Source: Thiohalocapsa sp.
Lineage (GTDB): Bacteria > Pseudomonadota > Gammaproteobacteria > Chromatiales > Chromatiaceae
NCBI RefSeq assembly: GCF_022340605.1
Contig: NZ_JAJDNQ010000047.1
Location: 1 to 50,088, forward strand
Reading direction: 5' to 3'
DNA length: 50,088 nt
Below are positions 1-42,964 of the stretch, piece by piece. The translations under genes and the position numbers were made by a program. Each line of letters begins with the position of its first letter. Position 1 is the stretch's first letter. The notes under the pieces were generated by a model. It searched no databases and was not told where the DNA came from. It worked only from the letters and a program-made list of their open reading frames with translations.

Positions 1-1574
1 CGTGGAATGCCATAGCGGCGCATGAGGGTCAGCGCGGAGTCCAGCCGCCGGCCGGTGGCGATGCCGAAGCTGGTGCACTTGCGGTTCTCGCGGATGACGC
101 GGATGAATTCCGCCAGGGCGTCCAGATCGCCAAGCAGGTTCTGGTCCAGGTCGGTGAAGATGGCCCGGTCGTGGTAGAGCATGGGCCGGCGCGTCACCGG
201 CGCCCGCGGCGGCGGTTCCACCCGCTCCAGCAGCGGCATCACCGCCGCCATGTAGCTCTCCGCATGGGCCGGCCACGAGTAGTGCTTCTTGACCCCTTCG
301 ATGCCGTTCTTCGCGAACTGGCGCCAGCGGTTGCGGTCGCTCAGCACCTTGAGCAGGGCCTTGGTGATGTCCTTAGTGTCCAGCGGGTCCACCAGGATGC
401 CGTTGCTGCAGTGCTTGACGATGTCGATGGGGCCGCCGTCCTCGGTGGCGACGATGGGCAGCCCGCTGGCGGCAGCCTCGATGAGCGTGAGCCCGAATGG
501 CTCGGTGAGCGCGGGATTGATGAATACACCGCGGGAGGCGGCCGCCAGTTGGTAGAGCACCGGCACCTCGTCGGCGGTGTGGTGCTTGGGGTAGGCGACG
601 CGGCCGTAGAGGTCGTAGAGATCGATGAGGATCAGGATGTCCGTCAGCACCTGCTGTGCGCCCGCGTCCAGCTCGCGGATGTCGTCGCGGTTGCCGGCGA
701 CGACGACCAGATTCGCCGCCCGTTGCAGCTCTTCGGACTCGCCATAGGCATCGATGAGCGTGGCGATGTTCTTGCGCTCGTCCGGCCGCGACAGCGCCAG
801 CACCATCGGCTTGCTCGGCTGGTGCAGGAAGCGGCCCAGCTCCTGGGTCATGGCGGCGCGCTGCTCGCGCCCGTCCGGTGGATGGAAGCGCTTCAGGTCC
901 GTGCCCGGCGGGATCACGCTCATGCGCTCGGGCTGGTAGTGGTCGTAGAGCCCGTACTGCTCCTCGATCTCCTGCGTGGTGCTCGTGATCACCAGCGCGG
1001 CGGCGCCGAGGGTCTCTTCCTCCGCGTTGATGCGCCGGTCCATGTTGTAGCGCGCGTCGATGGTCTCCTGCTTGATGCCGGAGGCGAGCAGGCGCTGGCG
1101 CTTCACGCGGCCCAGGGAATGCCCCGTGTGCACCAGCGGCACCCCGAGCTGCGCGGTGATGCGCGTACCCACGTAGCCGGCGTCGGCGTAGTGGCTGTGC
1201 ACCAGTTGCGGGAAGGCATCCTGCTCGCGCAGGAAGCCGAGCATGTTGTCCGAGAAGGCGTCCAGGTGGTCCCAGAGCTGCTCCTTGGGCAGATAGCCCG
1301 CGGGCCCGGCCTCGATGCGTACGATGCGTGCCCCGTCGCCGAGATCCTCGACGGGCTCGGCGTAGTCGCCGCTGACGTTCGGGTCGTCCACCAGCCGGGT
1401 GAACAGGTCGACGCGGTCCACGTCGGGCCGGGCCGCCAGCGCCCGGGCCAGCTCCACCACGTAGAGGATCTGCCCGCCGGTGTCCGCATCGCGGCCGAGC
1501 TCCAGGTTCTGCCCGCGGATCAGGCCGTGGACGCTGATCAGGGCGAGGTATGAGGCCGGGGCGGGGTTGGTCAT
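1..1574 (-). CDS. Sucrose-phosphate synthase, C-terminus cut by window edge
   Basis: Predicted to transfer glucose from a nucleotide sugar to fructose-6-phosphate, making sucrose-6-phosphate, a compatible-solute precursor. From the ATG at 1574 the frame stays open to base 1 (about 524 codons seen). The N-terminus has the SPS-type motif GRDADTGGQ with ELARAL behind it. The GT-B C-half has the EPFGLTLIEAAASGLPIVAT signature. It then continues into a HAD-phosphatase-like domain with a DLDQNLLGD motif, as in bidomain bacterial SPS proteins. The end of the HAD domain lies outside the window, so whether it is an active phosphatase cannot be judged. Upstream on the same strand is a glycosyltransferase fragment. 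Family assignment is firm; exact donor specificity is inferred. Confidence 0.88.
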   Translation of the reverse strand, partial: MTNPAPASYLALISVHGLIRGQNLELGRDADTGGQILYVVELARALAARPDVDRVDLFTRLVDDPNVSGDYAEPVEDLGDGARIVRIEAGPAGYLPKEQLWDHLDAFSDNMLGFLREQDAFPQLVHSHYADAGYVGTRITAQLGVPLVHTGHSLGRVKRQRLLASGIKQETIDARYNMDRRINAEEETLGAAALVITSTTQEIEEQYGLYDHYQPERMSVIPPGTDLKRFHPPDGREQRAAMTQELGRFLHQPSKPMVLALSRPDERKNIATLIDAYGESEELQRAANLVVVAGNRDDIRELDAGAQQVLTDILILIDLYDLYGRVAYPKHHTADEVPVLYQLAAASRGVFINPALTEPFGLTLIEAAASGLPIVATEDGGPIDIVKHCSNGILVDPLDTKDITKALLKVLSDRNRWRQFAKNGIEGVKKHYSWPAHAESYMAAVMPLLERVEPPPRAPVTRRPMLYHDRAIFTDLDQNLLGDLDALAEFIRVIRENRKCTSFGIATGRRLDSALTLMRRYGIP

Positions 1575-1711
1575 GAGCTTGCCGGGTTGCAGTCGCAGGC
1601 CACCAGCCTACCGTCTGCGGGCTCCCGGCTCCAGTCGTATGGCCCACGCAGCCGCTGAGTCGCCGGTCCGGACGGTCGCCGCGCGCGACCGCGACAGGGC
1701 GCTGCCGCGGC

Positions 1712-2062
1712 TCAGACCGTTGCGAAACAGCGCTCCGGGTCCAGGCCGTGACTCACCAGGTGCGGCGCGGACAACAGCGACTGCATTTCCTCGGCCACCC
1801 GCCGGTAGCTGAGATACTGCGCGCCGATACGGTAGTTCTGCTGCACCTCGATCTCGGGATGGCGGAAGTGCGCCTCGGGGATGATGTGGCGGCGCTCGGG
1901 CGGGCGGTCGTCGCAGAGCCCGGCGATGTAGAAGCAGCGGTGGCCCATGGCCTCAAGCACGGCTGCCCATTTTTCGATTTCGAGGCTGACACCGTCGGTG
2001 CCCCTGATGCGGGTGGACACGAAGCCGATGCGCTTCGGGCCGTTCTTCTTGCGGGTGATCAT
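1712..2062 (-). pseudogene. Truncated glycosyltransferase (N-terminal fragment)
   Basis: A 116-codon frame from the ATG at 2062. Its start (RIGFVSTRIRGTDGVSLEIE, about residues 9-28) is the typical first strand and glycine loop of a GT-B family 4-like glycosyltransferase, followed by EKWAAVLEAMGH. Such enzymes are normally about 350-450 residues. Here the frame stops after DPERCFATV, and no nucleotide-sugar-binding C-half is found before the sucrose-phosphate synthase start 137 bp downstream. I read it as a remnant of a second glycosyltransferase beside the sucrose gene. A small stand-alone protein is possible but less likely. Confidence 0.6.
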
Positions 2063-2249
2063 CTGCACTGAGGCCCATTGCAGTGCCCGGCGGGGCCGCC
2101 GCCGCGGGCGGGCAGATGCCGCTGTCAGTTCCCGAGTGGATAACTGGGTGGCGCCGCCGCGGTGCGGAGTGTATGCCGGATGGCTGGGTTGCGACAGCGG
2201 TGACGGGCAGCAGTCTCGGCTGCCTATGCAACGTCCGGGGGAACGCTGG

Positions 2250-5200
2250 TCAGGGGCCGCCCTCGGCGAACGGCGCAAGCGAGCCGGCAATGGCCGGCTC
2301 GTGTCTCCGGTGGTGCGCCTCGGCGCTTGGCCGAGGGCGCAGTGACCGGTGCGCGTCCGTGCGCGGCATGGCCGTAAAGCTGCCGGCCTCGCCAACGGCC
2401 GGGATCTCGCCGGGTGCGGCGGTCGGCATCTCGGCCAGCGCTGGGATTTGCGCCCGCAGCACTGCATCGGCCGCAGCCGTTGCTGTAACCCCACCGGCGT
2501 CGGTCGGCCTCGATTTGTGCTCAGGCATGGCCACCCTCATCAGTGCGCCCTCACTGCGTTGTGACAGGGTGCCGGTTGCATCGAGCCGCCCGGCGACGAC
2601 CTCGATCGGCGGCGAGGCTTCGCCGGGGCGATAGGCATCGAACTTGGCCCGTGCATCGAAAATGTCGAAGCGCCGCTGGTCCCCGCGCACTGCAAGCAGG
2701 CCCGACAGGCGCCGCCAGCGCGCGTAGAGGACGCCCTCGTGCCCCGCGGGCTCGGCGACGCCTTTGACGCCCAGGTTCAGCTCCTGGCTGCCTAGCATGG
2801 CGTGGGACACCAGGCTGCGGCTGCCGTCGAGCGAGAGCTGGACGTGGCCGGCGATGTCGTGCACTTGGTTCAGGTTGTCGATCCAGCCATGGGTGCCGCG
2901 CAGGTTGTCGATGATGGGGACGAGGGGGCGGGCGTCTTTGATGGTGACGTTCGCGCTGGCCGCCAGCGTCAGGGGCTTCTGCCAGTCCACCCGCGCGTCC
3001 TTGAGCTCCAGGCGTGCGTGCCAATCGGGGTCGGTGGCGTCGGCGACGGCGCCGTCCACGCGCACCCGGTCCAGCACCAGGGCGGAGCCCGTGATGTCGA
3101 AGGCGAGGTCCTCGGGCTCGCCGCCGTGGACGGCGATCTCCGCGCGCAGGTCGCCGCGGATGGCCTCGCCGCCGGCTGTCGCCCGCAGCCCCTCGGCTAC
3201 CAGCAGGAGCTGGCCGGTGGCGGCGTCGGGCTGTAGCGCGAGGTCGGCGGTCAGGTCCGCGGTGCCGGCGGTGAAGGCGACGCCGCTGTGCGCCGGCAGG
3301 TAGGCGTTGAGGCCGGTGAGATCGCGCAGGCGCGCCCGCGGGATGCGCAGGTCCGCCTCGGTGACGGCCGCCGCATCGGCATCGAAGCGGGCGCGGGCGG
3401 CGACCTCGAACCGGACCTGGTCCACCAGCGCCTCGGCCTCGTCGCTGCGGCGTAGCCGGCCGTCGTCGATGGCCGCGAAGAGGTCCAGGTCCGGCCGCGC
3501 GTCGCCGCGCGCCACGGCCAGCTCCAGCCGGCCGGCACCGGTGGCGACGTGCTCCAGCAGGGTTACTGTAAGCTCACCTGGCCGGCCGACGAGGGACGTG
3601 CCCGCGGCCGCTAGGCCATCGGCGAGCCGCAGATCCAGATCCAGCTCGCCGCCGCCGGTCAGGCTGAGGCCGAAGGGTCGGTGCAGCAGGCGCGCGATCC
3701 AGTCCAACTCCGAAACCGAGAGACGCGCGTCGAGTCGACCGTCGGCCGCCGCAAGCAGCGCGCCGAAGCCGTCGCGGCCGACCCGCCGCGCGAGGTAGAG
3801 CATCGCCCCGTCGGCGGCCGATGGCGGGGGTCTGCCGGCGTCCTGGTTCCCCGCGCCCTGATCCTCGGGCCGTGAGGCATCGGCGCCCGGTAGCGGCACC
3901 GCGAAGTGGCCGTCAGTGATAGCGAGGCGAGCATTCCAGACGGTGCCCCGGCCAAGGTCGTCGGCGACGGTGACATGCGCGCGGTCGAGCCTGAGATGAC
4001 TGCCAGCTAGGTCCAATGCGGCGCCGCCAGCCTCGTGGCCATGTGCCCGAAGTCTGAGGTCGAGGTCGCTGGCGAAGCGCACATCGCCGTGGGCGAGGTC
4101 GGCGTCGCGGGAGGTGACCCGCAGATCAAGCGCCAGGGCCTCACGGCTGACGCTGGCGTGACCCGTGAGTCTGCCAGTGCCGCCGTGCACCCGAAGGCCC
4201 CACTTGGCCGGCAGCAGCCGCTCCAGCGCGGCCAGGTCCGGCACCTGCACGGGCGGGATGTCGAGGATGAGCCGGGTCGCTGCGCGTGCGGATGCCTCGG
4301 GGCGGACCTCTTCCGGCAGGTCGATCATGAGCGCCAGATCGCGGCCGCGGAAGAGCGGCTGCGGCGCTTCGGTGTCGGCCCGGTGCACGAAGGCATCCAC
4401 CGCCGCGAAGCGGATGGTCATGTCGCCGGCGTCGTCGGGCTGATCCCGCAGCTCGATGGTGCCATCGCCGTCAAAGCGCAGTCCGCCCAGGTGCACGCCG
4501 AGGGGGTCGGCCGTGACCGTCAGGGTCGTGTCCCGGCGCAGGTCGCCGCGGGTCAGGTGCAGCCGGCCCCGCATGCGGCCGCGGCCGGACAGTTCCAGGT
4601 CCTGCGCCGCGCCGTGATAGAGGTTCAGGAAGTGCAGGCTTGCCAGCGGCAGGTCCATCCGCGCGTCGACGGACAACGCCTGCAGTAGCGTGACGCCGTC
4701 CAAGGCGTCGAGAGCGACATTGGGCAGCCCCGCCTCGCCGCGGAGCCAACCCGCGTCGGCCACCGGGGGCTCGTCTGCAATGGCGAGCCGCCGGAGCTTC
4801 AGGTCCAGATCGGCGCCAGCGATGGTCAGCGTATTCCTGTTGGTATCGATGTCGAGCGACCAGCCGAGCCGGCCGTCGAGTGCTGCGCGCAACTGTGCCA
4901 GCCAGAGCGTGATACCTCCCTCGATACGGATGTCGTCGAGGACGAGCATGGGTGTGGGGCTGCCCGTCACGGGCGGCCCCGCGGGTGCGTTTGGGTCGCG
5001 GTTGCGGATCACCGGATAGAAGTCCCGCAGGGCACGGGCCGTCGCTGCATCTTCGCTCTGCGTCTGCAGTCGGGGACGCAGGCGCAGATCGGGATTCCGC
5101 AGCCGGATGTGGTGCAGGTGCACTGTTCCGCGCAGCAGCGCCCAGGGCGACACCGACGCAGCGACGTCCGGCGTGTCCAATTGCCATTGGAGATCCGGGG

Positions 5201-26773: not shown

Positions 26774-27517
26774 GTGCTTCGTGATGCAACGGCGGACTCC
26801 AAGGTGATCCAGCTCATCGGCGTCGAGCGCAGCTTCCAGGTAGGCGACCAGACCGTCCACGCCCTGCGCGACGTCAACCTCACCATCGGCGATGGAGCAT
26901 ACGCGGCGGTGATGGGCCCGTCCGGCTCCGGCAAGAGCACGTTGCTCAACATCTTGGGCCTACTGGATCGTCCCGACGCCGGCAGCTACCAACTCGATGG
27001 CATCGAGACGACGACCCTGCCCGAGGAACGCCGCGCAAGGCTCAGGCGCGAGCGCATCGGCTTCGTCTTTCAGGCGTTTCATCTGATCCCCCGGCTCACG
27101 GCCGCAGAGAACGTCGAACTGCCGCTGATCCTCGCCGGGCACTCCGTCCGCGAGCGTCGTCGGCAGGTTGCGGATGCCCTGGACGCGCTGGGCATGACCC
27201 CGCGCGCCGATCACCGCCCGGACCAGCTCTCCGGCGGCCAGCGCCAGCGCGTCGCCATCGCGCGGGCCGCCGTCACCCGTCCGCGCCTGCTGCTCGCCGA
27301 CGAGCCTACCGGTAACCTCGACCGCGCCAGCAGCGACGACGTCATCGGCGCCCTGGAGGCCCTCAATGCCCAGGGCCTGACGCTTATCGTCGTCACCCAT
27401 GACCAAGCCCTCGGCGAGCGTGCCCACCGCCGCATCCGCATGGACGACGGCGCCATCCTGCAAGCCCCCGGGGCGCCGCCGGGGGCGGCGAGCTCCGCTC
27501 GGCCCGGCCGCTGCTAG
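26774..27517 (+). CDS. MacB/LolD-type ABC transporter ATP-binding protein
   Basis: A 247-residue ATPase subunit. Walker A is MGPSGSGKSTLLN, the Q loop is FVFQAFHLIPRLTAAENVEL, the signature is LSGGQRQRVAIARA, Walker B is LLLADEPTGNLD, and the switch His is VVTHDQ. A GTG at 26774 is the only start that gives a full N-terminus; a second GTG at 26804 is also possible. The last 15 or so residues (GAPPGAASSARPGRC) come from a dispersed palindromic repeat that also supplies the stop codon, so the natural C-terminus was probably replaced. Its permeases lie 6.5 kb downstream, after an insertion. Confidence 0.88.
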   Translation: MLRDATADSKVIQLIGVERSFQVGDQTVHALRDVNLTIGDGAYAAVMGPSGSGKSTLLNILGLLDRPDAGSYQLDGIETTTLPEERRARLRRERIGFVFQAFHLIPRLTAAENVELPLILAGHSVRERRRQVADALDALGMTPRADHRPDQLSGGQRQRVAIARAAVTRPRLLLADEPTGNLDRASSDDVIGALEALNAQGLTLIVVTHDQALGERAHRRIRMDDGAILQAPGAPPGAASSARPGRC

Positions 27518-27530
27518 GCGACCCCGCGCG
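27468..27530 (+). repeat. Palindromic repeat (GGGGGCGCCGAGTT family) inside ATPase 3' end
   Basis: About 60 bp (GGCGCCGCCGGGGGCGGCGA through GGCCCGGCCGCTGCTAGGCG) align with the repeats at 42875-42935 and 43896-43950. The first copy has the same CTCGGCCCGGCCGC core. It encodes the ATPase tail and its TAG stop. Confidence 0.75.
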
Positions 27531-28178
27531 ACGCGTGGCCCAACAGCGATGGCGGGAAGGTCATCTGCCGTTCCCGGGCATGCGCCGACTGAAAGTCGGC
27601 GCCCCCGGCGGCGAGCGGACGCTGCCACGCGCGCCCGCAGGTCGTCTTCTTATGCCGAGCGCCGTTCCGTGCGCTCCGCCCATCACTGTATCTCCGCGTA
27701 GCCCGCGTCACCGGCCATCGGGTATGCTCGCTGCTTGCCGCTGAAGTCTGCGACGTCTGGTGGTATTACGGAATTTGTGCTAAGGAGTCCTTCGACGGGC
27801 CGATCAAGAGCACGCCGGCGCGCGTATCCGACATTGTCGGGGTCTCGTCGAAGAGCTTGCTCAAGCCGGACTCTTAGGGTGCAGAATGCGCCTGGGCGTC
27901 ACGCCAGTGAGCTTCGCGAACGACAGCCGTAACGTCGCGCCCATGGGCCGGCGACGAACCTGACGTGGGGGGCGGGCTCGGCGCGCGACTCGTGATCGAT
28001 GGGTTGCGGAAGAACGCCCAAGCGTACCCCAACGGGCCGGCGCGCATAGTTGGGCGCGCAGACTGGCAGTCCCTCTCTGCCGGTTGCCCTCGGAAGCGCA
28101 GTGGGAGCGCGCCGGTCGTGCAGGGGCGCAGACGCCCCGCGCGCCGGCGACCCACGCCGCGGTGCAATAGAGCACGAC
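27518..28178. other. 661-bp non-coding stretch at left edge of the inserted block
   Basis: No gene is supported. It contains GACTGAAAGTCGGCGCC (27587-27603), shared exactly with 43820-43836. Further right is a GC-rich palindromic stretch (about 28040-28150) built from GCGCGCCGG words. Base composition changes near 27740-27900, where there are less GC-rich words such as GGTATTACGGAATTTGTGCT. This could mark the boundary of transferred DNA. Confidence 0.55.
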
Positions 28179-30815
28179 ATGGCCGACCTACCTGACTTCG
28201 ACGTCTTCCTCAGCTACAACCCGCTCGACCATGCCGCGGTTGGGCACCTCGCGCGCGCGCTCGAGGACCGCGGTCTCAAGGTCTTTCTCGATCGCTGGGA
28301 GCTGGTGCCGGGAAGCGCTTGGCCGGAGGCGCTGGCGGGGCATCTCGCCCAGTGTCGAGCCGCCGCCATCGTGCTCGGCCCCCACGGCATGGGTCCGTGG
28401 CAGCAGCGCGAGCGCACCCTGGCGCTGGACCGCCAGGGAAGGAACCCCCGCTTCGGTGTTATCCCCGTGCTGTTGCCGAACGCCGAGCCCGCGCTCGGGT
28501 TCCTCACGCTGAGCACCTGGGTAGATCTGCGTGCCGGCGTGGACGACACCGATGCACTTGACCTGCTCGCCGCCGCGGTCCGCGGGGAGCCGCCGGCCGC
28601 GCTGCTGGAGCGCACGCGCCAGACCGCCGCCCGAGTCTGCCCATACCGGGGTCTCGAAGTCTTTCGCGAAGAGGATGCGCCCTTCTTCTTTGGCCGCGAG
28701 GCTTGCACCGAGGCGTTGCTGAGGGCCGTCGCCGCTCAATCACTGGTGGCTGTTGTCGGGAGCTCCGGCAGCGGCAAGTCCTCGCTGGTCCGCGCCGGGC
28801 TGGTGCCCGCGCTGCGCCAGCCGGATGCGGATACGATCTGGGAGGTCGCAACGCTGCTGACCGGCGCACGGCCGCTGCATGCGCTCGCCGGCGCGCTGTT
28901 GCCCTTCCTTGAGCCCGAGGCGGGCGCGAGCGACTGGCCGGAGCAGATCGAGCAGCTTGCCGGGCGCCTCGCCGCCGGCGAGGTGACGCTGGCAGCGGTG
29001 ATCGAGCGTTTGCTGGCCAGGCAGCCCGGCACGGACCGTCTTCTGCTCGTGGTCGACCAGTGGGAAGAGCTCTACACCCAGGCCGGCGACGACGACACCA
29101 AGGCGCGCACTGCTGGCTTCATCGATGTCTTGCTCACGGCCGCCGACGCGGCGCCGCTCACCGTCGTGCTGACCTTGCGGGCCGACTTCTACAACCAGGT
29201 GCTGGACCACCGGCGCCTGGCAGACCGACTGCAGGCGGCGCAGATCAACCTCGGCCCCATGAACCGCGAGGAGCTGGCGGCGGCGGTGACCCGGCCCGCA
29301 GAGCAGGCTGGCCTCCAGTTCGAGGATGGCCTCCCCGAGCGGCTGTTGGACGACGTCGGCGACGCGCCCGGCAACCTGTCGCGATTGCAGTTCGCGCTTG
29401 AGGCCTTGTGGGCTGGCCGTCGCGGTGATCGATTGCTGCATGCCGTCTATCAGAGTACGGGCGGCATCGAGGGTGCCGTCGCCCAGCGCGCCGAGACGTT
29501 CTATGGCGGACTCGATCCGGCCGGGCAACGGGCTGCCGAGCAGCTCTTCACCAAGCTGGTGCGCCCCGGTGAAGCGACCGGCGACATCGGCCTGCGCACC
29601 GGTCTCGGCCAATTGGATGCGGCTGAGGCCGTACTGGCTCGGGAACTGGCGGACCAGGATTGCCGGCTGCTCGTTACCGCCAGAGACCCGGTTTCCGGCC
29701 GTCAGACCGTGGCATTGGCGCACGAGGCGCTGATCGGTGCATGGAGCCGGCTCGGCGCCTGGGTCGATCAGCTGCGTCAGACGCGCAAGGATCAGCGGTT
29801 GCTGGATGAGCTCGCCGGACAGTGGCGCGAGCAGGGCAAGCCGCGCCGGCGGGGGCTTGCATCCGGGCGCACCCTCAAACGCTTCGCGCATGTGGGGGCC
29901 GCCTCCGAGCTGGCCGGTGAATACCTGCGCGCAAGCCGCGCCCAGCGCAAACGCCGCCGGCTGTTGGTGGTCGTTGCCATCCTGGTCGTCGTCGCCGCGT
30001 GGCAGGGGCTCGCCTGGCTCGGTGCTCGCGGCCTGACATTGCGCCATCCGTTGGCGGCGGTGCTCGATGCGGCTGGACTATGGCAGCCCATCGAGCCCGA
30101 GATGATCACGATCTCCCAAGAATCCGGGCACCCGATGCGCTTCGTAATGGGGCTCGACAGTTCGAAGGCGTCCTGGCTCGGACCCGGACATGAAGTGCGG
30201 ATTGCCCATGCCTATCGCATCGGCCGCGACGAGGTTACCTTCGCGGAGTACGACCGCTTTGCGCTCGCGACCTGGCGCAAGCTGCCGGATGACAAAGGCT
30301 GGGGCCGGGGCGACCGCCCGGTGATCAACGTGTCTTGGCAGGACGCCGAGGCCTATACCGACTGGCTGTCCGGCAAGACCGGAAAGCGGTACCGGCTGCC
30401 CAAGGAAGCCGAATGGGAACATGCCGCCCGCGGCGGCACCAATACCGCGTATTGGTGGGGCGATGACGTCCACGAGGGTGATTCGGTTTGGGCCGACTGT
30501 GACGGTTGCGGCAGCCCATGGGACTTGCGGCAAACCGCGCCGGTGGGCAGCTTCCAGGCGAATGCTTTCGGTCTTCGGGACACGGCGGGCAATGTCTGGG
30601 AGTGGGTCGAGGACTGCTGGCATGGCAACTACGCCGGCGCGCCGAATGATGGCTCCGCGTGGGGCGAGCCGGACGATGCCGACTGTCGCCAGCGCGTGAT
30701 GCGCGGCGGTTACTGGGGCGGTAAGCCGGACCTGCTCCGCTCGGCCTTCCGCTTCAGGGGCAATGCCGCGTCTCGGACCGCCAGCGTCGGCTTCCGGGTT
30801 GCCCAGGACCCCTGA
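28179..30815 (+). CDS. TIR - STAND NTPase - transmembrane - FGE/C-type-lectin-like protein
   Basis: An 878-residue multidomain protein from the ATG at 28179. Residues 6-120 form a TIR domain (FDVFLSYNPLDHA, KVFLDRWELVPGSAW); Glu50 sits where NADase TIR domains carry their catalytic Glu. About 155-560 is a STAND-type NTPase (nSTAND1-like): CPYRGLEVFREEDAPFFFGR, Walker A GSSGSGKS (194-201), Walker B LLLVVDQWEE (288-297), LTLRADFY, and ALAHEALIGAWSRL. A basic stretch and a hydrophobic helix (LLVVVAILVVVAAW, about 594-615) follow, so the C-terminal part probably faces the periplasm. About 640-878 is an FGE-sulfatase/CLec-fold domain (YRIGRDEVTFAEYDRFA, RLPKEAEWEHAARGG, GLRDTAGNVWEW) ending in RGGYW...RSAFRFR...GFRV. 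The cysteines needed for formylglycine-generating activity are absent, suggesting a binding domain. A conflict/immune sensor role is inferred. Confidence 0.85.
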   Translation: MADLPDFDVFLSYNPLDHAAVGHLARALEDRGLKVFLDRWELVPGSAWPEALAGHLAQCRAAAIVLGPHGMGPWQQRERTLALDRQGRNPRFGVIPVLLPNAEPALGFLTLSTWVDLRAGVDDTDALDLLAAAVRGEPPAALLERTRQTAARVCPYRGLEVFREEDAPFFFGREACTEALLRAVAAQSLVAVVGSSGSGKSSLVRAGLVPALRQPDADTIWEVATLLTGARPLHALAGALLPFLEPEAGASDWPEQIEQLAGRLAAGEVTLAAVIERLLARQPGTDRLLLVVDQWEELYTQAGDDDTKARTAGFIDVLLTAADAAPLTVVLTLRADFYNQVLDHRRLADRLQAAQINLGPMNREELAAAVTRPAEQAGLQFEDGLPERLLDDVGDAPGNLSRLQFALEALWAGRRGDRLLHAVYQSTGGIEGAVAQRAETFYGGLDPAGQRAAEQLFTKLVRPGEATGDIGLRTGLGQLDAAEAVLARELADQDCRLLVTARDPVSGRQTVALAHEALIGAWSRLGAWVDQLRQTRKDQRLLDELAGQWREQGKPRRRGLASGRTLKRFAHVGAASELAGEYLRASRAQRKRRRLLVVVAILVVVAAWQGLAWLGARGLTLRHPLAAVLDAAGLWQPIEPEMITISQESGHPMRFVMGLDSSKASWLGPGHEVRIAHAYRIGRDEVTFAEYDRFALATWRKLPDDKGWGRGDRPVINVSWQDAEAYTDWLSGKTGKRYRLPKEAEWEHAARGGTNTAYWWGDDVHEGDSVWADCDGCGSPWDLRQTAPVGSFQANAFGLRDTAGNVWEWVEDCWHGNYAGAPNDGSAWGEPDDADCRQRVMRGGYWGGKPDLLRSAFRFRGNAASRTASVGFRVAQDP
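30693..30812 (+). other. Candidate DGR-type variable region at FGE C-terminus
   Basis: Codons for residues 839-878 follow the layout of DGR variable regions in FGE-type targets. RVMRGGYWGGKP, LLRSAFRFR and SVGFRV form the conserved scaffold. The positions that are Asn-rich in template-type sequences (Trp-N-N-N-Pro, R-N-R-N-N) are here Gly-Gly-Lys, Phe, Phe and Gly. Every FGE family member ends in a related pattern, so this alone is not proof. No matching template repeat was seen in the window. Confidence 0.4.
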
Positions 30816-31202
30816 CGGGCTGCGCCGCGCCCTCTTACCCTTCCCCCGGGGGTCCGCGACGCGGTTCCCCGGTCGCCGCGAGATTGCGCATCACCTGAGG
30901 CAGAGCCCGATTGTTGGCCAGGGGGGGCGAGCATGGGACCCTGGCCAATAGTCGGCGTTTCCCTGGCCTGCCAGGCGCGGTCTTCCTAATCGGGGTAGTG
31001 CCTGCCCGCCGGCTGCTTCGAGGACCTCCCGACGCCCTTTTCCGAGCGCACGCTAACGGGTGATAAGCCCGAGCTCAGTAGCCGTGTGGGCGGGTCTCCG
31101 CGAACATACGTCCAACTCCAGACGGACGAGATCCGCGGCTTTGTCGGCGTCGATGAGCGGCACATCATCAGCGTTGCGCACTATCACCTCGAAGGCATCG
31201 AA
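30816..31202. other. 387-bp spacer after the TIR-STAND-FGE gene
   Basis: It has a perfect CCCCCGGGGG palindrome at 30843-30852, 28 bp after the stop codon, and the stem-loop at 30914-30948 listed separately. No gene is supported: the open frame from 31086 runs in phase into the small membrane protein but its first 39 codons look non-coding and lack a ribosome site. Confidence 0.55.
30914..30948 (+). terminator. Perfect 10-bp stem-loop downstream of TIR-STAND-FGE gene
   Basis: TTGGCCAGGG (30914-30923) and CCCTGGCCAA (30939-30948) are perfect inverted arms around a 15-nt loop. There is no T-run after it, so a rho-independent terminator is only one option. A structural element linked to retrohoming, or a REP-type palindrome, are others. 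Confidence 0.4.
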
Positions 31203-31565
31203 ATGAGCTTTCCTGACATTCTCGGCACTGGCGCCTATGCGGACTTGGTGGCGTTGTTCCGCTCGCTAATCGCAACCACACAGGTCTTCATCTACGGCAT
31301 GATCGCGCTCGGCTTGGCGGTGTGGGCATGGCGCGGGGTCTTGTGGGGTTACCCCAGAGTCCTTGACCGATTTCCAACTGCGCACATGCTGCCCGCCGTT
31401 TTGAGTCTTGCGATTGCAACCCTTGTGGTGCAGATGTTTGGTGTCTACATGCTGGTGACATCATCGGGCTGTGTGATCATGGCGATCATCCTCATCGCCT
31501 TCATGGCGGTGGTGCAAAGGGGCATCGTGCGCGGTGCACTCCGCGCACTGCGAGCAGAAACCTGA
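31203..31565 (+). CDS. Small polytopic membrane protein, unknown
   Basis: 120 residues from the ATG at 31203, with GAAGG eight bases upstream. After a short N-terminus (MSFPDILGTGAYADLVALFR) there are about three hydrophobic helices: TQVFIYGMIALGLAVWAWRG, MLPAVLSLAIATLVVQMFGV, and CVIMAIILIAFMAVVQ. The C-terminus is basic (RGIVRGALRALRAET), probably cytoplasmic. I do not recognise a family. It is less GC-rich than neighbouring core genes and lies in the inserted block, downstream of the TIR-STAND-FGE gene on the same strand. Confidence 0.6.
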   Translation: MSFPDILGTGAYADLVALFRSLIATTQVFIYGMIALGLAVWAWRGVLWGYPRVLDRFPTAHMLPAVLSLAIATLVVQMFGVYMLVTSSGCVIMAIILIAFMAVVQRGIVRGALRALRAET

Positions 31566-31683
31566 GCTGACCAATCTATGGGGCACGGCGCCGGCGGCGC
31601 GCTTTCCGGTGCCATATCACCGCTGTCCGGCGCAGCGCGAGCGGCGGCGTACGCGCCTTTTCTGATCGCTGGATGCGAGGCGG

Positions 31684-33702
31684 TCAGAGCCGTGTCTCGT
31701 TGTCCGAGATATCGCCAACCGTGCTTCCCACGTCGATCTCCCGGTCCCTCAGCAGTTCCCGAGCCAGGGGCTCCGCCAGCGTACGGCTGTAAGGCACCGA
31801 CATGTGCGAGCTATCGCGGAAGAGGACCTGTCCAGCGCGCAACGAGCTGCATGGGGGCTGCGGACAAATGACATCGCCGAGATCGATCGTGCGGACGTTG
31901 CCGATTGCGGCTGACGCGTCACGCTCCACGTGCCAGACGTCGTCCTGATCCGGCGGGATCACATGCAGCACGCAGGCGTCCTCCGGGTCCTTGCCGCGCC
32001 AGCGCGCCATGGACAGGCAGCGCGGCGCGCTCAGATAGGGCCGTGGCGTGTCCCTGAGCAGGACAACCGAGCTGGCGGCGGACTCGAGCGCGGCCAGCGT
32101 GCGCTCGGTGGCGGCCTGCCATTGTTGCAGCATGGCCTCGTTCCCGCCGTAGACGTAGCGGTTGGAGTTCGTCACGATCACCGAGTCGGGGCGGATTGCC
32201 GCGATGCGCTCGATCGTCGCCGTCCGCCAGGCCGTGCACTCGGTATATTGGCGGCCGAGTGCGGGGTTATACAGTTCGTAGTCAACCGACGGGCAACCGG
32301 ACTTTGTGAACGCGTACAATCGCCAGCGCCGGCTCTCCACCAACTCGCGCAGGGCGGGAAACCACTGCGCCGCGTGTGAATCACCGAACAGTACCAGCGT
32401 CATCGCGCCGTTGCGCTCCCCGAACAGGCACTCCGGTTGCTCCACGTCGAGAAAATCGGCGTGGCATCCGTCGTCGTAGACCGCGGGGACTCGTCGGTGC
32501 GCGTCCAGGAACAGTTGCTGCGCCGGCTCTTTGAGCGCCCGCGCGGCGAGACTCTGCACCCCGAGCGCGATTGCCGCGACGATTGCGGTCAGCATCGCCC
32601 CGGCGGCCAACCCGCGTGTCGCGCGGGCGGATAGACGTCGATTGAAGCGCACTGGGTTCTCGACGAGGACCGCGGTCAGCCACGCCAGAACAAATACGCC
32701 CGCGATGCTCAGCAGGCGTTCGTTCAACGACAACTCGCCGAGCCAAAGCATGGCGAAGATGAAGACCGGCCAGTGCCACAGGTACAGGGAATAGGAGAGG
32801 TCGCCGATGAACTGCATCGGGCGCAGCGCGAGAAAGGCACCGACCCCGCGCCCGCGTAGCCGATCCGTCTGCGCCCCTGCAATGATCAATGCTGCGCCCA
32901 GGACGGGCGCCAAGGCCGACCACCCGGGAAACGGCGTGCGCTTGCTATACACCAGGGCCGCGCCCATGACCATGACCAGCCCGAGGGTCCCCAGCGCGAT
33001 GGAAAGCCGTGGCCCGATCGTGCGGCCATGCGCGAGCCAAAGCGCCAACAGGCCGCCGACGGCGAATTCCCACGCCCGGGTCGGCGAACCGAAGAACGCC
33101 CAAGGCTGGTTGTAGTCGGTGAGGAATACGGCGCCGGCGAGCGATACGACGATTGTCGCGCAGAAGGCCAGGAGCAGGCGGCGCGCGAAACCGGAGCGCG
33201 CACCCAGATGCAGGACGGCAAGCAGCAGGAACGGCCAAACCAGGTAGAACTGTTCTTCCACCGCCAGCGACCAGGTATGCAGCAACGGGTTCGCATCCGT
33301 ATTCTCGGCCAGGTAGTCGGTGGATAGATGGGCAAACCAGAGATTGCTGAGATAGGCGGCGGTGGCGAGAGCGGAGCGCGAGAACTCCGTGAGCTCCAGC
33401 GGCGAGTATGCGTACCAGGCAACGGCGATGGTCGCCAACAGCACCAGCGACGCGGCCGGCAGCAACCGCCGCATCCGGCGGGCATAGAAGCCGCCCAGCG
33501 AGATGCCGCCGCTGCGCCCGATCTCGCGTAGCAACAGCCCGGTAATCAGGTAGCCGGAGATGACGAAAAAGACATCGACGCCGACGTACCCGCCTGGCAG
33601 CCCTGGCAGGCCGCTGTGATAGAACACCACGAGCATCACCGCGATGGCGCGCAGACCCTGGATCTCGGGCTGGTAATGGCTGGCCGGGGAAACGCTGTGC
33701 AT
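31684..33702 (-). CDS. OafA/YrhL-type acyltransferase with C-terminal SGNH domain
   Basis: Membrane O-acyltransferase of about 672 residues. The N-terminal acyltransferase-3 domain starts YQPEIQGLRAIAVMLVVFYH (with the key His) and GYVGVDVFFVISGYLITG, then FYARRMRRLLPA, HTWSLAVEEQFYLVWP, and about ten hydrophobic helices. The C-terminal SGNH/GDSL hydrolase domain has VLFGDSHAAQW (nucleophile Ser) and FRDSSHMS (catalytic Asp/His pair). Such proteins acetylate surface polysaccharides, LPS O-antigen or peptidoglycan. The start at 33702 is preferred over 33765 because the family begins just before YQPEIQGLR. It is opposite to the flanking ABC genes and belongs to the inserted block. Confidence 0.9.
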   Translation of the reverse strand: MHSVSPASHYQPEIQGLRAIAVMLVVFYHSGLPGLPGGYVGVDVFFVISGYLITGLLLREIGRSGGISLGGFYARRMRRLLPAASLVLLATIAVAWYAYSPLELTEFSRSALATAAYLSNLWFAHLSTDYLAENTDANPLLHTWSLAVEEQFYLVWPFLLLAVLHLGARSGFARRLLLAFCATIVVSLAGAVFLTDYNQPWAFFGSPTRAWEFAVGGLLALWLAHGRTIGPRLSIALGTLGLVMVMGAALVYSKRTPFPGWSALAPVLGAALIIAGAQTDRLRGRGVGAFLALRPMQFIGDLSYSLYLWHWPVFIFAMLWLGELSLNERLLSIAGVFVLAWLTAVLVENPVRFNRRLSARATRGLAAGAMLTAIVAAIALGVQSLAARALKEPAQQLFLDAHRRVPAVYDDGCHADFLDVEQPECLFGERNGAMTLVLFGDSHAAQWFPALRELVESRRWRLYAFTKSGCPSVDYELYNPALGRQYTECTAWRTATIERIAAIRPDSVIVTNSNRYVYGGNEAMLQQWQAATERTLAALESAASSVVLLRDTPRPYLSAPRCLSMARWRGKDPEDACVLHVIPPDQDDVWHVERDASAAIGNVRTIDLGDVICPQPPCSSLRAGQVLFRDSSHMSVPYSRTLAEPLARELLRDREIDVGSTVGDISDNETRL

Positions 33703-34028
33703 GGACTTCAGGCGGGATGCTTTGCGGAAAGGTGGAACCCCGTCTGGTAAACAGCTCACTATCAATCATTCGGGCTGCCAGAGTCTATCCAGGATGCCGA
33801 GGGAATGACTGGCGGGCGTTCCCTGGCCCAGCATGGGAGAACCCGGGTGGCGAAATTCCCTGCTGACGCCTCGGCCAATCGATCCCGTGGTGGTTGGCGA
33901 TCCCGACATCGGCGTCGGCGCCGCTTCGCCACCGGAGACAGCCGCATCATTGGCCGTGTCCGTGCACGACGCTTCGCGCCTCCGCTGCTGACGGCCGTCG
34001 CCGCGTCCACGTGTCCCGATCGAGGCTC

Positions 34029-35234
34029 ATGCACCCCACCGACACCCTCACCAGCGCCGCCCGTGCCCTGACCGCGCACCTCACCCGCACCTGGCTGACG
34101 CTGACGGCGATGGCCTTCGCCACCGCGGCGGTGGTGCTGCTGTCGTCGCTGGGGGAGGGCGCGCGGCGCTACGTGCTGAACGAGTTCACGCAACTCGGCA
34201 CGCATCTGCTGATCGTGCTGCCGGGACGCAACGAGACCGCCGGCGGCGCGCCACCGCTGCTCGGCGAGACGCCGCGGGACCTGACGCTGGATGACGCGCT
34301 GGCCCTGCTGCGCTCGCGCTATGTGGAGCGGGTCGCGCCCGTGTCCATCGGTGCCGCGGAGGTGTCCGTCGGCTCGCTGTCGCGGGAGGTGACCATCCTC
34401 GGCTCCACGACGGAATTCCTCGACGTGCGCCGGCTGGACATGGCCGCCGGGCGCTTCCTGCCGCCCGGGGACCCGGAGCGGGGCGCGCCGGTGGCGGTGA
34501 TGGGGCAGACGCTGGCGCGGGAACTGTTCCGGGGCGCCAACCCCATCGGCCAGCGGGTGCGCATCGGCGACCGGCGCTTCCGGGTCATCGGGCTGCTGGC
34601 CGAGAGCGGCGTTTCGCTGGGCAGCAACTTGGCGGACGTCGCCTTGATCCCAGTGGCCAGCGCCCAGGCACTGTTCGACAACCCCGGCCTGTTCCGCGTG
34701 CTGGTGCAGGCGGGGGGGCGCGAGTCGCTCGACGTGGCCGCCGACGACCTCCGCCGCATCATCCGCGAGCGCCACGAGGGCGAGGACGACGTCACGGTCA
34801 TCACCCAGGATGCCCTGCTCGGCACCTTCGACCGCATCCTCGGTGCCCTGACTCTGGCCGTCGCCGGCATCGCCGCCATCAGCCTCGCCGTCGCCGGCGT
34901 GCTGATCATGAACGTGATGCTCGTCTCCGTGTCCCAGCGCACTGCCGAGATCGGCCTGCTCAAGGCCCTTGGCGCCCGCCAGCGCGACGTGCTGGGGCTC
35001 TTCCTCACCGAGGCGCTGCTGCTCGCCGCCGCCGGCACCGCCGCCGGCATCGCGCTGGCCTATCTCGGTGTCTGGATCTTCAACGCGCAGTTCCCGGCGT
35101 TTCAGCTCGTGGTGCCGGCCTGGGCGCCGTTGGCGGCCGCCGCGGTCTCCATCGGCGCCGGGCTGGTGTTCGGGCTGCTGCCGGCGCGCCGCGCGGCGCG
35201 GCTCGATCCGGTACAAGCCTTGAATAGAGTTTGA
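34029..35234 (+). CDS. MacB/FtsX-type ABC transporter permease (first)
   Basis: 401 residues from the ATG at 34029 with GAGG upstream. The N-terminal helix TLTAMAFATAAVVLLSSLGE is followed by the MacB periplasmic core (LGTHLLIVLPGRNETAGG, VMGQTLARELFRGANPIG, RVRIGDRRFRVIGLLAES). The FtsX domain with three helices contains LAVAGVLIMNVMLVSVSQRT, EIGLLKALGARQRDVLGLFL and VFGLLPARRAARLDPVQALN. It pairs with the second permease at 35368 and with the ATPase and adaptor upstream, from which it is now separated. Confidence 0.88.
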   Translation: MHPTDTLTSAARALTAHLTRTWLTLTAMAFATAAVVLLSSLGEGARRYVLNEFTQLGTHLLIVLPGRNETAGGAPPLLGETPRDLTLDDALALLRSRYVERVAPVSIGAAEVSVGSLSREVTILGSTTEFLDVRRLDMAAGRFLPPGDPERGAPVAVMGQTLARELFRGANPIGQRVRIGDRRFRVIGLLAESGVSLGSNLADVALIPVASAQALFDNPGLFRVLVQAGGRESLDVAADDLRRIIRERHEGEDDVTVITQDALLGTFDRILGALTLAVAGIAAISLAVAGVLIMNVMLVSVSQRTAEIGLLKALGARQRDVLGLFLTEALLLAAAGTAAGIALAYLGVWIFNAQFPAFQLVVPAWAPLAAAAVSIGAGLVFGLLPARRAARLDPVQALNRV

Positions 35235-35254
35235 AGTGCGCAGTGCGGGACCCC

Positions 35255-35297
35255 GTAGGTCGGGCTGAGGAACGAAGCCCGACACCGCGCGCGACCC
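35255..35297 (+). repeat. GTAGGTCGGGCTGAGG...GCCCGAC REP-type palindrome
   Basis: GTAGGTCGGGCT and AAGCCCGACAC are near-inverted arms around GAGGAACG. The 132-bp space between the two permease genes is otherwise featureless. Relatives lie at 20350, 41577, 41671 and 44089. Confidence 0.75.
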
Positions 35298-35367
35298 TCT
35301 GCGCACGCCGTACCACGCACGACGCACTCCGCACTGAAAACCCTGGCAGTAGAGACGAGCGGGACAG

Positions 35368-37019: not shown

Positions 37020-37805
37020 ATGGCACTGAAGACATGGCAGCGGATGACGGCAGCGGGGCTGCTGATGGTCGGCGGCGGTGCGCAGGCGGCGCTGGTGGCC
37101 TATCAAGCCAACGGCGCCGATCTAGTCTACGACGACGACTACACGCCGGTGGGGGCGTCCAGTCCGGGCCTGACCTGGACGGCGGACGCGAACCTGTTCA
37201 AGACCCAGTACGTCGCCGACAACACGGTGGTAGATCAGATCATCGCCGCGGTACCGACCGTCACCGACAGCAATGGCGATCACCCCGTCGTGGCGAGCGA
37301 CTTCAACACGACCGATTGGCGCATGACCTGGAGGGGCGCGACGGCGTGGGTGGAGTGGCTCGGGATCATCGCGTACGGCGGCGCCGACGATTGGCGGCTG
37401 TGGTCGGCGTTGAACGATGATGGCAGCGGACCCTGTGGCCCGGCTTATGACTGCGCCGACAGTGAGGTGGGGCATCTGTTTTACGACGAGGGCAACCTGA
37501 CCGCGCGCCAGAACATTACCTCCAGCATCACCCTGACCGGCATCTTCATGAATGTTCAGAATACCGGATACTGGTCCGGTACGGAGAGCTCGGCCTCTGG
37601 CGGGTGGTACTTCATCACCAGCGATGGCTCCCAGAGCTACACCAGTAAGGGCCTCCTGAACCACGCCTGGGCAGTTCGCCCCGGACAAATCACCGCCGCC
37701 GCCCCGCTGCCCGGCACGGCGGGGCTGATGGCTCTGGGGCTGCTGGGGCTCGGGGCCGGCCGGGTGGGGCGGCAGGCGATCCTGGTTATTCGGTCGTTCG
37801 GCTGA
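37020..37805 (+). CDS. Secreted DUF1566-like protein with PEP-CTERM-type sorting tail
   Basis: 261 residues. It has an N-terminal signal peptide (MTAAGLLMVGGGAQAALVAY, cleavage after AQA likely). The middle to C-terminal part has Trp/Gly-rich segments typical of DUF1566/Lcl domains (TDWRMTWRGATAWVEWLGII, GGADDWRLWSALNDDGSGPC, GYWSGTESSASGGWYFITSD, HAWAVRPGQ). It ends with a PEP-CTERM variant: AAPLPGTAGLMALGLLGLGA followed by Gly-Arg and a basic tail. Export plus exosortase processing and surface display are expected; exosortase genes are not in the window. Two Cys in GPCGPAYDC could form a disulphide. Confidence 0.72.
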   Translation: MALKTWQRMTAAGLLMVGGGAQAALVAYQANGADLVYDDDYTPVGASSPGLTWTADANLFKTQYVADNTVVDQIIAAVPTVTDSNGDHPVVASDFNTTDWRMTWRGATAWVEWLGIIAYGGADDWRLWSALNDDGSGPCGPAYDCADSEVGHLFYDEGNLTARQNITSSITLTGIFMNVQNTGYWSGTESSASGGWYFITSDGSQSYTSKGLLNHAWAVRPGQITAAAPLPGTAGLMALGLLGLGAGRVGRQAILVIRSFG

Positions 37806-42808: not shown

Positions 42809-42964
42809 GCCGGCCGGTGCGCCGGCTTCGGCCGGCAATGAAAGAACGCCGAGTGCAACTCGGCGCCCCCACGCGGCGCCCCCTGGGGGCGCCGAGTTGC
42901 ACTCGGCCCGGCCGCCGCGAGGCGGCCTCATGCGACCCCACCCACCAAGACCGCCCGACACGGC
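42809..42964. other. Spacer after prpB with a large palindrome
   Basis: Contains the perfect 23-bp inverted repeat at 42848-42907 followed by CGGCCGCCGCGAGGCGGCC. No gene is supported. Such a strong stem just after prpB may act as transcription barrier although no T-run follows. Confidence 0.6.
42848..42907 (+). repeat. Perfect 23-bp inverted repeat (GCCGAGTGCAACTCGG family)
   Basis: The left arm is 42848-42870 and the right arm 42885-42907, exact reverse complements, with a 14-nt loop. The arms themselves contain a small palindrome (GCCGAGTGCAACTCGGC), so a cross-shaped fold is possible. Related copies: inside the ABC ATPase 3' end (27468) and at 43896. Confidence 0.85.

Follow-up and report, generated by a model that had tools for sequence, protein, structure and literature searches.

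STAND-FGS counter-invader systems combine an N-terminal effector domain, TIR among them, with a central STAND module that can be of the nSTAND1 type and a C-terminal FGS domain (PMC8195603, section 7). The lectin fold of this FGS/FGE domain is proposed to bind invader molecules, genomes often carry more than one such system, and the parts of diversity-generating retroelements (DGRs) often adjoin the STAND-FGS genes or sit elsewhere in the genome (PMC8195603, section 7). In the available part of a second account, nine DGR loci are reported for Thiohalocapsa PB-PSB1, the DGR targets of clade 5D are nSTAND1 or NACHT proteins, some of them with TIR heads, some loci are degenerate, there are candidates for remote targets, and the target sensors are predicted to be both cytoplasmic and periplasmic, their sensing role still to be tested (PMC10907252). 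Here we describe P0001, an 878-residue TIR - nSTAND1 - membrane helix - FGE protein encoded at 28179-30815 on the plus strand of a 50,088-nucleotide stretch of Thiohalocapsa sp. DNA (the window; contig NZ_JAJDNQ010000047.1, C143 below). Since both accounts describe TIR-headed STAND-FGE proteins, the class is already known; among the titles and abstract openings surveyed, we found no membrane-spanning member tested in the laboratory. With somewhat more confidence than doubt, we read P0001 as an NLR-like NADase alarm made of one protein, which is anchored in the inner membrane and may have been parted from its mutator.

The open reading frame (ORF) starts with an ATG at 28179 and stops with a TGA ending at 30815. 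Judged against curated Pfam cut-offs, it encodes TIR_2 at residues 9-129 (28203-28565; 84.7 bits, cut-off 28, E 9.5e-24), an nSTAND1 NTPase at 155-555 (28641-29843; 360 bits, cut-off 27.1, E 2.6e-107) and a C-type-lectin-fold domain, FGE-sulfatase, at 655-875 (30141-30803; 163 bits, cut-off 23.3, E 1.2e-47), all on the plus strand. A first-pass annotation, made from the letters of the window, had given the domain order as TIR, STAND, helix and FGE, and these matches, far above their cut-offs, together with a hydrophobicity scan, bear this out. P0001 thus resembles the STAND-FGS systems in its TIR effector, its nSTAND1 module and its C-terminal FGE domain, and differs from them in having no adjoining DGR and no template that we could find; a membrane helix goes unmentioned for STAND-FGS proteins in section 7 of PMC8195603. 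It shares with the PB-PSB1 and clade 5D targets (PMC10907252, available part) an nSTAND1 module with a C-type-lectin tip, the TIR head present in some of them and the periplasmic location predicted for some, but no pairing of a template repeat (TR) with a reverse transcriptase (RT) was found in its assembly.

The NTPase that the first-pass annotation had recognised is well supported by its Pfam score and by intact Walker motifs. In a 14-row alignment (A1), the Walker A motif GSSGSGKSS (residues 194-202; 28758-28784, plus strand) is invariant at G194, G197, G199, K200, S201 and S202, and the Walker B motif VVDQWEE is invariant at D293 (29055-29057, plus strand), Q294, E296 and E297. An AlphaFold2 (AF2) model built on A1 reached a mean pLDDT of 78 and a pTM of 0.61; pLDDT falls below 50 at residues 140-151, 614-626 and 661-668 and across most of 848-865, among others, and the model of the tip is therefore untrustworthy. 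Foldseek matched the whole model to the plant TIR-NLR RPP1 (E 2e-8), CED-4, Apaf-1 and Avs4 (8dgf) in complex with a phage portal (E 6.5e-6). TM-scores on the query are about 0.2, low whole-chain values being expected for a multi-domain model. P0001 shares the TIR and STAND modules of the plant TIR-NLRs RPP1 and Roq1, which differ in being soluble, eukaryotic and equipped with a leucine-rich-repeat sensor. The effector-STAND-sensor logic is also that of the Avs/bNACHT anti-phage STAND proteins, with Avs4 among the fold matches. However, the sensors of characterised Avs proteins are of the repeat type and their effectors are nucleases (PMC10907252, available part), whereas P0001 pairs an FGE sensor with a TIR effector.

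The TIR domain matches the solved chains 3h16, 4lzp, 4c7m, TcpB and Roq1 by phmmer (E 0.002-0.008). Glu78, the putative catalytic glutamate of the motif WQQRE (28410-28412, plus strand), aligns with the W-x-x-x-E glutamate of the five best solved chains and with the glutamate of WCLEE in Roq1. The W-x-x-x-E glutamate is the catalytic residue in solved TIR NADases, and by alignment it is E78 in P0001. This residue is conserved in 9/9 TIR rows of A1 and is invariant in a second alignment of 5 rows (A2), so that a TIR fold with a catalytic-position glutamate kept in related proteins holds up. It is not the residue that had been proposed at first: Glu50 was rejected as the catalytic residue because it is glutamate in 2/9 TIR rows of A1 only, the remaining rows having L, T, D, N or K. 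Mutating E50 would therefore be uninformative on catalysis, and mutating E78 would be informative.

At the other end of the protein, the FGE domain is probably a binding domain rather than an enzyme. Among solved structures, PvdO (5hha) is its best match, with E 4e-36 in a sequence comparison and E 6e-14 by Foldseek, consistent with the lectin-like FGE domain expected at the C-terminal end. In an alignment with SUMF1, the C-Y-R-Y-R-C stretch, whose two cysteines we take to be the active-site pair, faces cysteine-free residues in P0001. Neither cysteine has a counterpart; the cysteines that the domain does contain are at 774, 777, 813 and 836. The missing pair argues for binding over catalysis. 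An even cysteine count was dropped as a mark of periplasmic FGE domains, since a helix-free protein (L139) also has 4 cysteines. The NCBIfam models PvdO, GldK and EgtB match the domain as well, all far under their cut-offs, and FGE-like domains are also found in non-defence proteins. This favours the idea that P0001 senses the state of the envelope and has a non-lethal output, its TIR domain making a signalling nucleotide or acting as a scaffold to adjust physiology. The DNA block that carries P0001 also holds an acyltransferase/SGNH protein, and enzymes of this kind can modify surface glycans. However, Glu78 is conserved across distant relatives, and TIR-headed STAND switches are typical of immunity (PMC10907252, available part); we regard an envelope sensor of this kind as unlikely.

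Between the switch and the tip lies a predicted transmembrane helix at about residues 595-614 (29961-30020, plus strand), directly preceded by the basic stretch RAQRKRRR (29937-29960, plus strand), its putative cytoplasmic flank. Mean Kyte-Doolittle hydrophobicity (KD) over 19 residues peaks at 2.44 at 595-596. The sole other segment above 1.6 (KD 1.72, at 315) falls within nSTAND1, and the N-terminal end lacks hydrophobic character. Net charge around the best window is +6 in the 15 residues before it and +2 after it, and AF2 draws residues 577-615 as one helix. The helix foreseen near 594-615 with RAQRKRRR ahead of it is thus confirmed by both approaches, and the N-in/C-out layout proposed with it gains support from the positive-inside rule, which would place the FGE tip probably outside the inner membrane. 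An outside FGE domain is also favoured by a relative in genome G130, which has a CarboxypepD_reg-like stretch between helix and FGE (a weak match: E 0.008, 16.9 bits, cut-off 32.3), as expected for an extracytoplasmic part.

The first-pass annotation had called a trans-membrane STAND layout unusual. We scored a helix wherever KD reached ≥1.6 within 170 residues after an nSTAND1 match of >300 residues. Our named sample was the best 80 of 558 confirmed nSTAND1 stretches (L128-L207), in which 76 ORFs could be counted; at the remaining four loci, a single nSTAND1 match >300 residues was absent or did not lie in one frame. A helix follows nSTAND1 in 69/76 of these ORFs, whatever the tip, and 64/69 are positive-inside, compared with 9/196 control windows inside nSTAND1 that reach the helix cut-off. 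Among the ORFs of the own genome and its relatives the count is 11/21. FGE-tipped nSTAND1 ORFs have the helix in 4/6 cases in the named set and in 5/9 cases in the own genome and relatives; two DGR targets whose helices are weaker (C142, 1.37; G151, 1.51) fall short of the cut-off. Nearly all ORFs of the named set thus have the helix after nSTAND1, as do about half of those in the family, which suggests a general trait of the clade and no oddity, and we dropped the view of the layout as unusual.

The same counts bear on whether the FGE domain might instead be cytoplasmic, the helix being peripheral or serving oligomerisation and P0001 being an ordinary soluble Avs-like sensor. The closest full-length relative among the matches listed (G152, 42% identity) has no helix (KD 0.52), which means that kin differ in where the sensor lies, only 11 of the 21 family ORFs reach the helix cut-off, and both cytoplasmic and periplasmic sensors are predicted among DGR targets (PMC10907252, available part). 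Set against this are the KD of 2.44 with RAQRKRRR ahead of it and the excess of mostly positive-inside helices in the named set over the controls. We consider a soluble P0001 quite improbable. A tip that probably lies outside could also read neighbouring cells, with the TIR domain triggering incompatibility death in a manner like fungal NLR-based heterokaryon incompatibility, and kin or self/non-self recognition is an alternative role proposed for DGR-diversified conflict proteins (PMC10907252, available part). However, a periplasmic tip behind the outer membrane would presumably meet little of a neighbour cell, and a scan of ten neighbouring ORFs brought up nothing recognisable as an adhesin; we give this role little credence.

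For the membrane-anchored alarm that we prefer, we infer the steps from knowledge of the family. The lectin-fold FGE tip would bind a ligand outside the inner membrane, and binding would be relayed through the single helix to the cytoplasmic nSTAND1, which would exchange nucleotide and oligomerise. Oligomerisation would bring the TIR domains at the N-terminus together as a working NADase that acts through Glu78, and loss of NAD, or an ADP-ribose product, would stop the cell, with death or dormancy and an anti-phage action as the presumed outcome. The FGE domains of kin are diversified by DGRs, and the tip of P0001 would now be frozen, or served by a template that escaped our search. The host genome carries photosynthesis genes, with two tandem ones of the Photo_RC family, and three DGR-type RTs. 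In this bacterium P0001 would put a TIR switch resembling those of plant NLRs at the membrane and its lectin-fold sensor probably on the outer side. Because it is one compact gene with no mutator nearby, it suits tests of STAND sensing across a membrane.

Homologues of P0001, including a sister gene on contig C142 and two TIR-headed genes in G152, are DGR targets. The three DGR-type RTs of the own genome are on C142, C35 and C149, with none on C143. On C142 (L028, 1-5452), an nSTAND1-helix-FGE gene without a TIR match accompanies an RT at 3729-4955; its variable repeat (VR, 3285-3401) and TR (4971-5087) form a pair of 117 nt in which 6/6 differences are template A to G. On C35 (L029, 461-2855), an RT (461-1663) and a template (about 1693-1822) are paired with a variable repeat at 2722-2851 in an FGE gene, and 16/18 differences are at template A. 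The nSTAND1-FGE pairs of other genomes behave alike, with 10/11 differences at template A in G159, 12/12 in G151 and 21/21 in G075, and a single template in G152 serves two TIR-nSTAND1-FGE genes (20/21 and 14/15). On C149 (L036, 3570-6453), a DGR-type RT adjoins a 643-residue FGE protein.

The tip of P0001 contains a segment that aligns with DGR variable repeats (30693-30797, plus strand), with TTC AGG GGC at codons 859-861. A local DGR was rejected, as no RT lies on C143 and no TR-like partner of the tip was found within the window. In a search of the own assembly for a template, with 40/81 candidates scored, the best other match was 28 nt long (E 0.0022) and the longest was 39 nt at 77%; the 28-nt match, on C138, was rejected because it does not extend in its context. 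For P0001 we thus found, among the candidates scored in the own assembly, no set of a VR, a TR differing from it at template A and an RT. Codon usage in the tip gives a further view. Arg860 of P0001 is AGG, and codon 860 is Arg in 26/51 distinct FGE matches, 14 with AGG and 12 with CGN. An RT is present in the examined locus for 7/14 AGG rows and 0/12 CGN rows (one-sided Fisher test ~0.005, post hoc and on related sequences). The other seven AGG rows comprise six with NNC-AGG-NNC (P0001, two in L088, L094 and two in L100) and one, L101, with template-like AAC AGG AAT. For comparison, Arg is encoded by AGG at 4/84 places in P0001 and at 16/586 in eleven further ORFs of the window. Where templates mostly read AAC, P0001 has NNC or NNT at 8/9 positions (p 0.04) and NNC at 6/9 (p 0.14). 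The tip of L101 (in G159) resembles an unmutated template (NNN...NNN), with no RT in its 4.9 kb contig, and P0001 differs from this repeat at 20/26 A sites and 4/28 other sites, counted over codon positions 1 and 2. In L101 (contig 530 of G159), an ORF on the minus strand (414-3434) fuses a Tn3 transposase fragment with an FGE domain.

These signals are consistent with a tip once hypermutated by a DGR, and there is evidence on the other side. The excess at A sites is also seen in FGE domains without a known DGR (for example, 19/26 vs 7/28), presumably because A sites are loop positions, 3/11 CGN control rows also reach 6/9 NNC, and codon 860 is something other than AGG or CGN in 10/17 of the FGE rows linked to an RT. 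In addition, 10/12 CGN rows come from loci of only ~3.5 kb, where a more distant RT would escape. Our tentative and rather doubtful suggestion is that P0001 is an orphaned DGR receptor: its outward tip, once hypermutated, would have become frozen in the chromosome when the gene and its mutator were separated, and the gene would have moved with a block into an exporter operon. If so, a specificity chosen from a somatic-like repertoire would here be fixed in the germline. FGE genes of the NNC-AGG-NNC type without an RT in the stretch examined are also present in G130, G044 and G197, and such a route might be recurrent. The single-contig genome G130, whose gene of this codon type is itself TIR-nSTAND1-helix-FGE, yielded no DGR-type RT at E 1e-10; G044 has a DGR on another contig, and for G197 the RT count covers the examined stretch.

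Several observations weigh against the reading of P0001 as a membrane-anchored NADase alarm. PADLOC gave weak partial TIR or P-loop matches only, from the nine families listed at E 0.1, none with an Avs name; of the ten neighbouring ORFs scanned, none was recognisable as a known defence gene; and TIR domains may also act as scaffolds or signal makers instead of killers. The helix-free relative in G152 belongs here too, as do the profile searches that found no RT on the window contig. The template search for 30660-30815 found none in the own assembly, which is 87% complete and had 40/81 candidates scored, so that a template may be missing or unscored. An FGE scaffold tree places P0001 in an unresolved fork of 38 rows, not nested among DGR targets. 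Finally, the RT is broken or a fragment in 2/5 nSTAND1-FGE DGR loci, being spread across three ORFs in G075 and reduced to 171 residues in G152 (20.5 bits, cut-off 29.6).

P0001 matches at E 1e-60 in 101/210 genomes of the family, mostly through the FGE domain, with up to 4 candidates per genome scored in most genomes, so that full-length relatives may be missed. Among the matches listed, one besides P0001 itself covers nearly all of the protein (G152, residues 4-874, 42%). In 35 stretches (15 own and 20 from relatives), all three domains are found in three ORFs of two genomes, two in L083 (G152) and one in L094 (G130), and Pfam agrees; the G130 gene entered the family set by its FGE domain alone. 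In the named set, 9/80 loci have a TIR + nSTAND1 ORF, and three of the nine also have FGE, in metagenome-assembled genomes of Nitrospira, Planctomycetota and Schlesneria; the Nitrospira TIR is split across two frames, and hence Pfam finds none in the long ORF. The TIR and nSTAND1 domains of P0001 are 50% and 47% identical to those of a TIR-nSTAND1-helix-WD40 protein (L084, G195) that has its helix at the same place and a WD40 propeller instead of FGE, that is, another sensor on the same chassis. In contrast, the closest FGE domains are in L088 (62%) and L094 (58%). Judged by these identities, the parts are shuffled. The own genome has five nSTAND1 matches above cut-off and 13 FGE matches.

Synteny confirms the inserted block proposed at first for this gene. 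Relatives with an empty site resemble the window up to about 27457 and again from about 34028, which leaves a block of ~6.6 kb (27458-34027) with an exporter ATPase (26774-27517) on one side and permease 1 (ORF 33894-35234) on the other. We searched nine congeners with permease 2. In three of them, G161, G160 and G154 (L121, L123 and L124), HlyD, the ATPase and permeases 1 and 2 follow one another directly; there the gap between ATPase and permease 1 is at most ~0.3 kb and the exporter operon is thus uninterrupted. The junction holds ~1.8 kb of other sequence in G155 and ~1.2 kb in G156, and no ATPase was found in G159 and G158 within the 8.1 and 6.0 kb examined before permease 1. G153 gave a partial permease match and G157 none. 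The content of the junction differs between congeners and the junction is therefore variable, possibly an insertion hot spot. In G155 it is a short stretch with ORFs resembling a pair of the HigBA type, and in G156 it contains a 239-residue membrane-like ORF. A plasmid or phage home was rejected, as 0/707 matching plasmid records and 0/23 matching phage records cover 80% of P0001 in one place; the best plasmid place matches residues 1-560 at 47% (Caballeronia sp. NK8).

Besides P0001, the block contains a 159-residue ORF (31086-31565) with no Pfam or NCBIfam match and, on the minus strand, the acyltransferase-3/SGNH gene (31684-33765) identified by profile scan. A 521-residue minus-strand ORF at 33762-35327 was rejected as spurious, the true gene there being the plus-strand permease. 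Further along the window, a 261-residue ORF (37020-37805, plus strand) matches Lcl_C below threshold (26.4 bits, cut-off 34.9). A short repeat (27465-27520) marks the block's left edge and recurs at 42867-42924 with 83% identity, and the region of the second copy overlaps a palindromic element (42848-42907); this may be a REP/MITE-like (repetitive extragenic palindrome or miniature inverted-repeat transposable element) boundary.

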